Virus record (IMG/VR): IMGVR_UViG_3300031999_000056
Span: 1-43,573 of that record
Reading direction: 5' to 3' (one strand)
DNA: 43,573 nucleotides
Source: a virus
Positions 5,958 to 43,573 of the stretch are shown here, one piece after another. Below the pieces are notes generated by a model. The model worked only from the letters and a program-made list of their open reading frames with translations. It ran no database searches and was not told the origin of the DNA. Position 1 is the stretch's first letter. Each line of letters opens with the position of its first letter. A program made the translations under genes and the position numbers.

Positions 5958-6668
5958 TTATTTCCTTTCTGCTAATTCTTGTCTTACTTTTGCGCCCAAA
6001 TCCAAATACCTGCCAACCTTGGCAGGCAGCTTCAACCCTTGAGCCGAGGTAAGGCCGTTCAAACCCAAAGACCCCTCAACCTTGGCAGGCAGCTTCAACC
6101 CTTGAGCCGAGGTAAGGCCGTTCAAATACAAAGACCCGTCAACCTTGGCAGGCAGCTTCAACCCTTGAGCCGAGGTAAGGCCGTTCAAATACAAAGACCC
6201 GCCAACCTTGGCAGGCAGCTTCAACCCTTGAGCCGAGGTAAGGCCGTTCAAATCCAAATACCCGCCAACCTTGGCAGGCAGCTTCAACCCTTGAGCCGAG
6301 GTAAGGCCGTTCAAATCCAAAGACCCGTCAACCTTGGCAGGCAGCTTCAACCCTTGAGCCGAGGTAAGGCCGTTCAAACCCAAAGACCCGCCATACACAC
6401 CATCTTTTACTATTTTACTCAAAGCCCAATTTAAAAAACTAATGAATGTAGGAAACCTATTTACAAAAGCAGTTTTATACTCTGTCTGGTCAACCCTATC
6501 ATCATCAGTAAACCTTAACTCTATTTCACCCGCTGGCGTATAATGCCCCTCACGCCAGATTTTAGGGTCAAGTTTGAGATTTTTCTCGGTATTGCCGTGG
6601 CTATCTAAATCTGCCACCTTGATTTCTTTTGTAAGTGGATTATGTAAAAATGAAGCAAATTTGCACAT
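5958..6668 (-). CDS. Repeat protein with six 21-residue LRR-like units
   Basis: The 236-residue protein has an N-terminal domain of about 90 residues (MCKFASFLHNPLTKEIKV..., WREGHYTPAGEIELR). Six near-identical 21-residue repeats of the form GSLDLNGLTSAQGLKLPAKVG follow, and then a short charged tail. The regular Leu positions suggest a leucine-rich-repeat-like solenoid or beta-helix. The repeats differ mainly at one or two surface positions, as expected of recent duplication. The function is unknown; binding to a host factor is an inference. Confidence 0.8.
   Translation of the reverse strand: MCKFASFLHNPLTKEIKVADLDSHGNTEKNLKLDPKIWREGHYTPAGEIELRFTDDDRVDQTEYKTAFVNRFPTFISFLNWALSKIVKDGVYGGSLGLNGLTSAQGLKLPAKVDGSLDLNGLTSAQGLKLPAKVGGYLDLNGLTSAQGLKLPAKVGGSLYLNGLTSAQGLKLPAKVDGSLYLNGLTSAQGLKLPAKVEGSLGLNGLTSAQGLKLPAKVGRYLDLGAKVRQELAERK
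6001..6391. repeat. Six 63-bp direct repeats
   Basis: Six almost identical 63-bp units share the core ggcaggcagcttcaaccctt and encode the 21-residue repeats. Near identity at DNA level, including silent sites, points to recent expansion and makes copy number likely to vary by recombination or slippage. Confidence 0.9.
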
Positions 6669-6693: not shown

Positions 6694-6909
6694 TTAATAT
6701 ATCGCGCATCTTAACTCTCTTGTTTGCCTGGCGGTAAACTCGGCGCATTTCCGCATTACATAATTAAACAACTCCGCTTTTTTCTCGGCTTCTGCGCGGG
6801 TCTTGAAGCGATCTGCGACCTCTAACTTAACTAAACCGTAGGTGTCGCTTTTTGTTCCCAGTATTACTAACCAATTACCAAACCCTTGACGGATGATTGC
6901 TTCACGCAT
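6694..6909 (-). CDS. Small early protein of unknown function
   Basis: I choose ATG 6909 (71 residues) because a perfect AGGAGG lies just upstream. The frame is also open from ATG 7029 (111 residues), but that extension covers a nested terminator-like structure and may be leader RNA rather than protein. The protein is mixed alpha/beta (FGNWLVILGTKSDTYGLVKL, then a helical FKTRAEAEKKAELFNYVM). It is the first gene after the promoter at 7065-7093. No family is recognised. Confidence 0.6.
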   Translation of the reverse strand: MREAIIRQGFGNWLVILGTKSDTYGLVKLEVADRFKTRAEAEKKAELFNYVMRKCAEFTARQTRELRCAIY

Positions 6910-6924
6910 GGCGGGCCTCCTAAC

Positions 6925-6999
6925 AAAAAGACCCCGGTGCCTTGCAAGCATTAAAAAAGACGCATTTAATTGCGCCTCTTTTACCGGGGTCTCTGTTAG
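6925..6999 (-). terminator. Nested intrinsic terminator-like structure in the leader
   Basis: On the minus strand, AGACCCCGGT (6983-6992) pairs with ACCGGGGTCT (6929-6938), followed by a U tract (6929-6925). The stem is extended by CTAACA with TGTTAG. Its loop holds a second hairpin, GGCGCA (6971-6976) with TGCGTC (6959-6964), followed by six U. Each alone would be a credible rho-independent terminator. The structure ends right at the ribosome-binding site of the gene at 6909. Confidence 0.65.
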
Positions 7000-7058
7000 T
7001 AATTTTTTTCCGCTTGCAAGGACGCTCATTTCGTCTATTCCCTTGTGTTTGTATTCAT
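6925..7058 (-). ncRNA. Candidate structured leader / small RNA 1
   Basis: The promoter at 7065-7093 predicts a start near 7058, and the nested terminator ends near 6925, giving an RNA of about 134 nt. Besides the terminator stems, a perfect 10-bp pair GCTTGCAAGG (7012-7021 on plus) with CCTTGCAAGC (6940-6949) interleaves with the terminator stem (order X-Y-X'-Y'). That is the topology of a pseudoknot or attenuator. It may be an attenuator for the gene at 6909 or a free small RNA. Confidence 0.4.
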
Positions 7059-7064
7059 GGGTAA

Positions 7065-7093
7065 AGTATAAGCCTATATTTCTGTTTTGTCAA
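7065..7093 (-). promoter_or_regulatory. Strong sigma70-type promoter (early)
   Basis: On the minus strand, TTGACA (7088-7093) is followed after 17 bases by TATACT (7065-7070). This is a near-perfect consensus promoter pointing at the early genes. The predicted start is near 7058. Confidence 0.85.
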
Positions 7094-7149
7094 CTAAAAT
7101 TATTGAACTATTTTTTGCACATCTTCAAGGCAATAAACGAGCAGGTAAT

Positions 7150-7374
7150 TCACCGACGAGGAAAGGCAATTTTAAGGTTATCTTTAATAAAGAATTTTCT
7201 CCAATATTTTCTATTTCCATTAGTTTTTAAATGACAATTAATACAAAGGCTTATTAAATTATCTTCTTTGATAGATGCACAATCCATAGAACAAAATATT
7301 CTATGGTTAGATGGATAACTTTTAAATTCTCTACCACATTTTTGACATTTTACTATTATCATATCTTCTCTCAA
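7150..7374 (-). pseudogene. HNH endonuclease remnant with internal deletion
   Basis: The 74-residue frame joins the N-terminal zinc motif of an HNH protein (CQKCGREFKSYPSNHRIFCSMDC) directly to its C-terminal end (DNLISLCINCHLKTNGNR). The central segment with the paired catalytic His is missing. This looks like an in-frame internal deletion of a formerly longer homing-type HNH gene, so it should be catalytically dead. It lies between two promoters and is AT-rich. Confidence 0.7.
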
Positions 7375-7375
7375 T

Positions 7376-7435
7376 AAAAAGGCGCTGTTCGGGTGTCATC
7401 GGTTTACGGTTAAGTAATCCGCCCTACTAAGCGCC
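7376..7435 (-). terminator. Intrinsic terminator of candidate RNA 2
   Basis: The GGCGCT/AGCGCC stem is followed directly by UUUUU on the minus strand. The loop is long (43 nt), so efficiency depends on how the rest of the RNA folds. Confidence 0.45.
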
Positions 7436-7468
7436 GATATAGGCATAAAAAATCCGTATCCCGATGAC
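7376..7468 (-). ncRNA. Candidate structured small RNA 2 (interleaved stems)
   Basis: The promoter at 7475-7502 predicts a start near 7468. The RNA would begin in TGTCATCGG (7461-7469), which pairs with CCGATGACA (7394-7402). GGCGCT (7430-7435) pairs with AGCGCC (7381-7386), followed by five U (7376-7380). The two stems interleave (a-b-a'-b'), so they form a pseudoknot or compete. The element is about 93 nt, bounded by a promoter and a terminator, with no open frame of note. It is not a tRNA, because no T-loop consensus is present. Confidence 0.5.
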
Positions 7469-7474
7469 ATTAAA

Positions 7475-7502
7475 AGTATATCATAAAAATACGAAATGTC
7501 AA
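7475..7502 (-). promoter_or_regulatory. Strong sigma70-type promoter
   Basis: On the minus strand, TTGACA (7497-7502) is followed after 16 bases by TATACT (7475-7480). It overlaps the last codons of the VRR-NUC gene and points toward candidate RNA 2 and the HNH remnant. Confidence 0.8.
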
Positions 7503-8223: not shown

Positions 8224-8540
8224 TTTCCCAATGCCCTGCTGACCGCGTCAAAACAAGAAGTAGCCTCTGCGGTAACATTATATTTCTCACAATAATGCGC
8301 CTTATTCCCCCTTAAATCCTTGATTAACTGGCGCATACTTCTTTTGCCCTGAAAAGTTCCCATTTTGGCGATGGCATCCCGGGTCGTTAAGGGGCAGTAG
8401 AATTTAGAGTTCCTCGGTATAAAAATGCGCCGGAAGCGCCGCTTGTCGTCGTAGCAAATAGTTACATATAAATTGCCGCATCCTACCTTGACTTTATAGG
8501 TAGCGCCTGGGGTAACTTCCCACTCTGTTTTTTGTATCAT
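8157..8540 (-). CDS. Hypothetical phage protein
   Basis: The protein has 127 residues. The N-terminal half looks like a small beta barrel (TYKVKVGCGNLYVTICYDDK, FRRIFIPRNSKFYC). The second half is helical with a conserved-looking TSCFDAVSRALGKWL and a basic tail. It overlaps the metallophosphoesterase stop by 4 bases. The function is unknown. Confidence 0.65.
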   Translation of the reverse strand: MIQKTEWEVTPGATYKVKVGCGNLYVTICYDDKRRFRRIFIPRNSKFYCPLTTRDAIAKMGTFQGKRSMRQLIKDLRGNKAHYCEKYNVTAEATSCFDAVSRALGKWLKVKRKRSYTTKHRESATVG

Positions 8541-43187: not shown

Positions 43188-43573
43188 TTAGCCTTATCCG
43201 GCAAATATCCACTACCACCGCAAGCTGTGCAGGTTTTGCGCGGCTTAGGATCATTCTTTTTTTGAGTTTCTAAGGGTTTATCTATCTTATTAAGCCAATT
43301 AACTACAAAGCGGCGCGTCTTTTGGCGGCCGGGGTGGGTAGATAGCCAAGTATCCATTTTGCCCAACTCTTGTTCTATGTTGATATGTTTATAAACAGGG
43401 TTTGTTTTTAGGGTTTTTAAAAAATCTTCATCAGAGAGTTTGCCGCCAGGCACTTCCTTCCCTTCCTTTCCTATCTTATCCTTTCCTATCTTATCCTTTC
43501 CTATCTTATCCTTTCCTATCTTATCCTTTCCTAACAGTAATGTTATTTCTTGAGATATAACATTCTCTAACAA
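43169..43573 (-). CDS. Replication initiator-like protein (C-terminal part, wraps to 1-832)
   Basis: This is the other end of the junction-spanning gene. Within this copy the frame is open from the window edge. It shows four KDKIG units, then a segment (LSDEDFLKTLKTNPVYKHI through FVVNWLNKI) typical of the C-terminal region of phage replication proteins. It ends in a Cys-rich tail, CTACGGSGY...CWCWE, that looks like a small zinc-binding knuckle. The stop is TAA at 43169. The apparent TTG at 43573 is only the window edge; the true start is the ATG at 832. Confidence 0.75.
   Translation of the reverse strand: MLENVISQEITLLLGKDKIGKDKIGKDKIGKDKIGKEGKEVPGGKLSDEDFLKTLKTNPVYKHINIEQELGKMDTWLSTHPGRQKTRRFVVNWLNKIDKPLETQKKNDPKPRKTCTACGGSGYLPDKAKCWCWE
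43450..43573. repeat. Terminal direct repeat, right copy (4 tandem units)
   Basis: This is the second copy of the end repeat. It equals positions 1-139 minus one 15-bp unit. The single-unit difference keeps the reading frame, because 15 bp encode five residues. Confidence 0.95.
43471..43530. repeat. 15-bp tandem repeat, four copies
   Basis: This is the counterpart of the array at 22-96, with four units instead of five. The copy-number difference between two reads of the same locus suggests length variation in the population or an assembly choice at the repeat. Confidence 0.95.

Follow-up and report, generated by a model that had tools for sequence, protein, structure and literature searches.

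Control of early operons by RNA alone is known mainly from enteric phages (P1, P4, N15 and Gifsy-1). In phage P4, the CI RNA pairs with sequences up- and downstream of itself, resulting in premature termination (PMC4825925). In prophage Gifsy-1, an antirepressor is controlled by a terminated short RNA together with a leader ORF. There, at the IsrK locus (RF01394), transcripts either end at a promoter-proximal intrinsic terminator, giving the short RNA, or read through it to give an mRNA; a small ORF is translationally coupled to the next gene (PMC4825925). The C4 locus of P1/P7, the CI locus of P4 and the corresponding locus of N15 (RF01695; targets RF03163) carry complementary pairs in co-linear order (a', b', then a2, b2), closely spaced on a single transcript downstream of an early promoter, and the targets of C4 loci lie just before the SD-ATG of the next gene. 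Here, two leaders of similar construction, referred to as modules 1 and 2, were analyzed in a virus of uncultured origin.

The whole stretch of DNA analyzed, referred to as the window, comprises 43,573 nt (IMG/VR record IMGVR_UViG_3300031999_000056, positions 1 to 43,573). Its genes are on the minus strand: those for the terminase, portal and structural proteins have high coordinates and are followed by the gene for a 1374-aa protein (13431-9307), then by small genes and finally by an early block, which encodes an Erf-like annealing protein, a RecE/YqaJ-like exonuclease, SSB, methyltransferases and a replication initiator. Both modules are on the minus strand between these blocks and therefore head the early (recombination and replication) operon. 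A 15-bp tandem repeat, TCCTTTCCTATCTTA, is shared by the two record ends (15-99 and 43464-43533), its left copy lying within a replication-initiator ORF that runs off the end, which suggests that the genome is probably nearly complete or circularly closed. No DNA similarity to known phages was found for the module region. Since no integrase (PF00589) was found in nine virus records, which may be incomplete, and no HTH_3 repressor was found in the window, a role in lysogeny is without support in the window phage. In the search of virus records, PF00239 was found only in genome G003.

The first-pass annotation of this DNA had placed a strong promoter ahead of each leader, and this is borne out. 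Promoter 1 (7475-7502, minus strand) reads TTGACA-16-TATACT with a TG before the -10 and a predicted start near 7470-7468, and promoter 2 (7065-7093, minus strand) reads TTGACA-17-TATACT with a predicted start near 7058. These are the only sites in the whole window with 11/12 matches, scored against a general consensus that may not be that of the host.

Module 2 consists of two interleaved stems placed around a hairpin, all on the minus strand. Its leader ORF starts with an SD (AAGGG, 7040-7044) and an ATG (7027-7029); this start region (7027-7044) aligns with the start boxes of L020 and L004, two loci from related phages that are described below. The ORF (6694-7029, a 111-aa frame) is open across the entire module and continues in frame into the next gene. 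The first arm, X (7012-7021, CCTTGCAAGC), lies 8 nt past the leader ATG and is followed by the second, Y (6983-6992, AGACCCCGGT). Between Y and X' is an inner hairpin, H (6953-6982, AAAAGAGGCGCA-ATTAAA-TGCGTCTTTTTT), which resembles an intrinsic terminator, has a six-T run of its own and covaries with its counterpart in L020. X' (6940-6949, GCTTGCAAGG) is separated by one base from Y' (6925-6938), which comprises ACCGGGGTCT at 6929-6938 and a T-run to 6925. Within ~8 nt after Y' (6929) comes the SD (AGGAGG, 6916-6921) of the gene behind the module (6694-6909, ATG at 6909), whose 71-aa product is without known relatives. The pairing of X with X' and of Y with Y' agrees with the coordinates given in the first-pass annotation; the longer Y arms drawn there (to 6999 and 6919) contain the same 10 bp (6983-6992/6929-6938), to which they add an internal loop and the pairing CTAACA/TGTTAG. 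The two helices cannot nest and have similar predicted energies, and given the single base between X' and Y', a pseudoknot with both helices stacked would be possible. An interleaved score as high as that of module 2 was reached in none of 2000 shuffles of its leader, and the score itself (53) exceeds the best obtained from 40 shuffles of the whole window (44).

Related phages were reached through the 1374-aa protein, and in one of them a homologue of module 2 (L020) occupies the same place. It follows the promoter TTGACA-17-TATATT, again with a TG before the -10, and runs in the order ATG, 9 nt, X (CCAGCAAGACA), 19 nt, Y (CCCCGCTT), terminator hairpin with T6, X', 1 base, Y' and TTTT. The two modules thus share their spacing (ATG to X 8-9 nt, linker 19 nt, X' to Y' 1 nt), and they align with a score of 59, compared with a maximum of 45.5 in 1000 shuffles. 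Covariation in related phages, which the first-pass annotation had proposed as a check on its stems, is observed for module 2: 13 of the 28 pairs are changed on both sides in L020 and none is broken, against 0-2 in slid controls, a comparison that rests on two sequences because only one homologue can be aligned. The arms of these two sequences were aligned with each other by hand, which leans towards the structure, and the slid controls guard against this in part. A neighboring TSCPD gene used as an anchor returned L020 alone again. The tail-fibre-like neighbor gave L016 and L017, with no module in either. No useful relatives of the 71-aa, HNH-like and nuclease proteins were found in viral contigs. 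A relative of the 1374-aa protein is present on a Candidatus Omnitrophica MAG contig (L038, 10001-10177), which hints at the phage host; among 384 genomes from the phylum to which this MAG belongs, a search for prophage relatives gave 2 matches, in which no module was seen.

The layout was also sought through geometry, with a stem-only, promoter-blind descriptor (at least 7 perfect pairs in X and in Y, X' and Y' at most 8 nt apart, and a span of at most 150 nt). A scan of 687 kb on both strands gave 44 hits. Four are within 140 nt of a promoter, and these rank 1, 3, 7 and 8, corresponding to module 2 of the window, L020, L045 (located ~2.7 kb beyond L020 in the same phage, as its second module) and L004. 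Because promoter-proximal sequence makes up 3% of the total, the chance of finding four such hits in the top eight is ~5e-5, with thresholds that were set after these four loci had been seen. A fifth instance, which played no part in setting the thresholds, was found through the stem-only scan alone at rank 2 (L012, in genome G005). It has an ATG with X 7 nt later, a 14-bp Y and a frame that stays open for 40 codons, followed by the SD-ATG of a replication-type gene. When a start codon and an open frame were required, 23 hits remained, and the five instances (one each in the window, G005 and G003 and two in G008) were the top five; a promoter accompanies 5/5 of them versus 2/18 of the other hits. 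The layout of module 2 therefore recurs at four further loci in three related phages.

The instances differ in their details. A good T-run is missing from Y' in L045 and L012 and from H in L004 and L012. Predicted energies of the two folds are near-equal in the window (-38.4/-41.8), L020 (-44.9/-44.3) and L045 (-40.9/-42.1), and they are lopsided elsewhere, with Y:Y' favored in L004 and L012 and X:X' in module 1 and in L006, a related but longer arrangement that is also in G005. When L004, L006 and module 1 were each aligned by sequence to module 2, the scores were not, or only marginally, above those of shuffles, and these three consequently count as layout matches only. No leader peptide matched a Pfam ASH/Icd-like family. 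Near a second promoter in G005 (L006, 18305-18425), a leader ends in GCCTGC...GCAGGC plus eight T, and its local similarity to the L020 module exceeds that of 1000 shuffles.

The same descriptor was applied to phages with described RNA systems. In P4, for which no threshold had been adjusted, the immunity locus ranks highest among the minus-strand hits (X TTCTCAC, Y GCTATCGCC, gap 4 nt), and Rfam places C4 there at 8420-8507, with isrK upstream. In the part of N15 that was fetched, likewise not used for the thresholds, the best minus-strand hit is the C4 locus, as confirmed by an Rfam match. The top hits in lambda carry no promoter flag. The P1 annotation gives the same order, C4 then a2 and b2 and then icd, with a2 and b2 22 nt apart, beyond the limit of the descriptor.

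Like a C4 locus, module 2 has two segments that are complementary, in the same order, to two others just 3' on the transcript, near the next SD-ATG. However, the C4 (RF01695) and isrK (RF01394) models gave no hit in the window, none around the modules at E up to 10 and no match at the loci carrying the other instances. A second, upstream target pair (a1-b1) is absent, X and X' each occurring once in the window, so that there is one set of pairs only; the c4-a1b1 model does not match either. The modules further differ from C4 loci in that X is located at the start codon of the leader and that Y and X' (or X and Y) are separated by a terminator hairpin; in addition, their sequence is unrelated, and no integrase or known antirepressor was found. 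Compared with IsrK, the modules contain terminator-like hairpins and a leader ORF, whose coupling to the next gene and regulatory role are putative and which starts inside the predicted terminated RNA, upstream of the terminator. Ribosome-mediated attenuators of amino-acid operons share with the modules a leader ORF, mutually exclusive stems and a terminator with a T-run, but not the interleaved order, the side-by-side 3' arms or an ORF that spans the whole terminator, and the modules are without an obvious run of regulatory codons. Riboswitches of the H-type pseudoknot class have the same X-Y-X'-Y' topology; in contrast to these, the modules lack an Rfam match, their arms are not conserved, X' and Y' are 1 nt apart, and the large loop holds a hairpin of its own. 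No known riboswitch or other Rfam class reached its gathering score for the modules, and STnc40 and SAM-II (E 0.33 and 3.1) were rejected as far below theirs. With no match to these models, no second target pair and no lysogeny genes found in the window, the modules at most work like the P4 CI/P1 c4/IsrK class and are not members of it.

From the anatomy of module 2, its covariation and the recurrence of its layout, we infer how these leaders might function. On balance, we favor reading both modules as promoter-proximal attenuator leaders of the early operon, well supported in the case of module 2, in which leader translation, X:X' and the terminator compete. Ribosomes starting at the leader AUG would cover X and then block H and Y:Y', allowing RNA polymerase to read on. 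With the start region unoccupied, H and/or Y:Y' would terminate transcription, and an RNA of ~106-134 nt would be released. In the read-through RNA, X:X' (with Y:Y' as a pseudoknot) would be expected to close off the leader start as well as the sequence ahead of the next SD. More speculatively, X' and Y' of the released RNA could pair in trans with X and Y of new transcripts, strengthening the shut-off in the manner of P4 CI RNA. The leader ORF might simply be the gene, since it runs into the next gene in the window and in L020. The first-pass suggestion of a switch (attenuation or antitermination) or of related small RNAs was thus right in kind, given that module 2 covaries and that its layout is found at four more loci in three phages, but it was incomplete: the inner terminator hairpin, the leader ORF with its SD, the place of X'-Y' just upstream of the next SD-ATG, the early-operon position and the closeness to C4, CI and IsrK had gone unseen.

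The main rival to this reading is a device acting purely in cis, either an attenuator coupled to ribosomes or a pseudoknot that senses a ligand or protein, without a small RNA acting in trans. Such a device would suit the presence of all complements on one transcript (X and X', and their module 1 equivalents a and a', are found nowhere else in the window), the near-equal predicted energies of the alternative folds and a window without any sign of lysogeny. Yet the adjacency of X' and Y', the co-linear order and the place before the next SD fit C4 antisense/target pairs rather than the usual riboswitches; the stems have a different sequence in every phage within a constant layout, and a conserved ligand pocket would not tolerate this; and no Rfam riboswitch matches. 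We therefore regard a purely cis-acting device as rather unlikely. The position directly behind early operon promoters, with a terminator following at once, is also what might be seen for an RNA antiterminator site that makes RNA polymerase ignore terminators, like put of HK022 or nut of lambda. Put and nut act through specific sequence, whereas the arm sequences here are not conserved between phages and the terminator lies inside the structure instead of downstream, making such a site very improbable. Finally, the constraint on module 2 could come from protein coding or from a DNA operator, with pairing as a by-product, because no stop codon interrupts the ORF within the module, either in the window or at four other loci, and because the palindrome CTTGCAAG occurs twice, in the window only at X and X'. 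The operator idea was dropped because X of L020 is not palindromic although its pairing is kept. Coding constraint fares no better: across the module, the peptides of the window and L020 have little in common, yet the base pairs are fully compensated, and the leader peptides match no protein family except for a CHAP domain fused in L020. Either form of this explanation appears very unlikely, and the attenuator reading is retained for module 2.

Module 1 is a weaker case than module 2, having a Y of only 6 bp and no homologue that could be found. Also on the minus strand, its X (arm a; 7461-7469, TGTCATCGG) begins within an AUG located at the predicted 5' end of the RNA and is followed by Y (b; 7430-7435, GGCGCT), X' (a'; 7394-7402, CCGATGACA) and a terminator-like Y' (b'; 7376-7386, with AGCGCC at 7381-7386 and TTTTT at 7376-7380). 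Both stems, a/a' and b/b', are present where they had first been placed, and the a helix is extended (9+5 bp) by TACGG (7454-7458) and CCGTA (7405-7409) across a 2x2 loop. The small ORF of this module stops before Y'. Just past Y' is the SD (GAGAGAAG) of a gene (7150-7362, minus strand) for a 70-aa HNH-like protein, which matches PHROG HNH families at E 1e-4 to 6e-4, with Pfam HNH below the cut-off. Another small frame (GLLNRKPMTPEQRLFIERRYDNSKMSKMW, 7335-7425) overlaps both module 1 and the beginning of the HNH-like gene; its product looks like the N-terminal part of a helical protein, and the frame may be the remnant of a gene. Of the topology proposed as common to both modules, the layout is indeed shared, but the sequence is not (alignment score 19 versus a shuffle mean of 21).

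The interleaved score of module 1 (40) was reached in 1 of 2000 shuffles of its leader and somewhere in ~9 of 40 shuffled windows. As such scores are common in shuffled windows, the case for module 1 is strengthened only by its position immediately behind the best promoter. An ordinary promoter and terminator with an accidental long-range helix would be compatible with the short Y, the missing homologue and the shuffled windows that reach a similar score. We consider this possible but doubtful for module 1, which lies directly behind one of the two best promoters, has a score rarely met in local shuffles and carries an SD-ATG after Y', as the other modules do. Module 1 probably represents a simplified form of the module 2 device.

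The recovery of this layout through geometry in several phages, without an Rfam match, suggests that RNA-only control of early operons is more widespread than its enteric examples and invisible to sequence models. A simple descriptor that recovered the P4 and N15 loci could be used to scan viral collections. Tentatively, and with less assurance than for the attenuator reading itself, the modules may represent a self-contained family of RNA immunity or attenuator elements in phages of uncultured bacteria, possibly Omnitrophota. One leader would then combine antisense, target, start codon and terminator and act in cis and in trans, its pairing sequences diversifying to give each phage its own specificity, with two copies in several genomes. 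If the pairing sequences do set specificity, these leaders would serve as small RNA attenuators that can be reprogrammed, and would give access to the control of superinfection in hosts not yet cultured.

Several other features were observed in these phages. A DNA methyltransferase gene of the window contains an in-frame triplet run, (TGT)6(GGT)5, at 2559-2592, in which a change in length would alter a Cys/Gly stretch. At 5997-6390, a 63-bp tandem repeat of 6.3 copies encodes a leucine-rich-like repeat in a tail-fibre-like gene, homologues of which are present in L004, L016 and L017. In L014 (7796-8050), ~200 nt have a very stable predicted fold (-95 kcal/mol, minus strand), with TAGCGCACCGATTGCGCTA-like repeats and facing promoter-like sites on its flanks.
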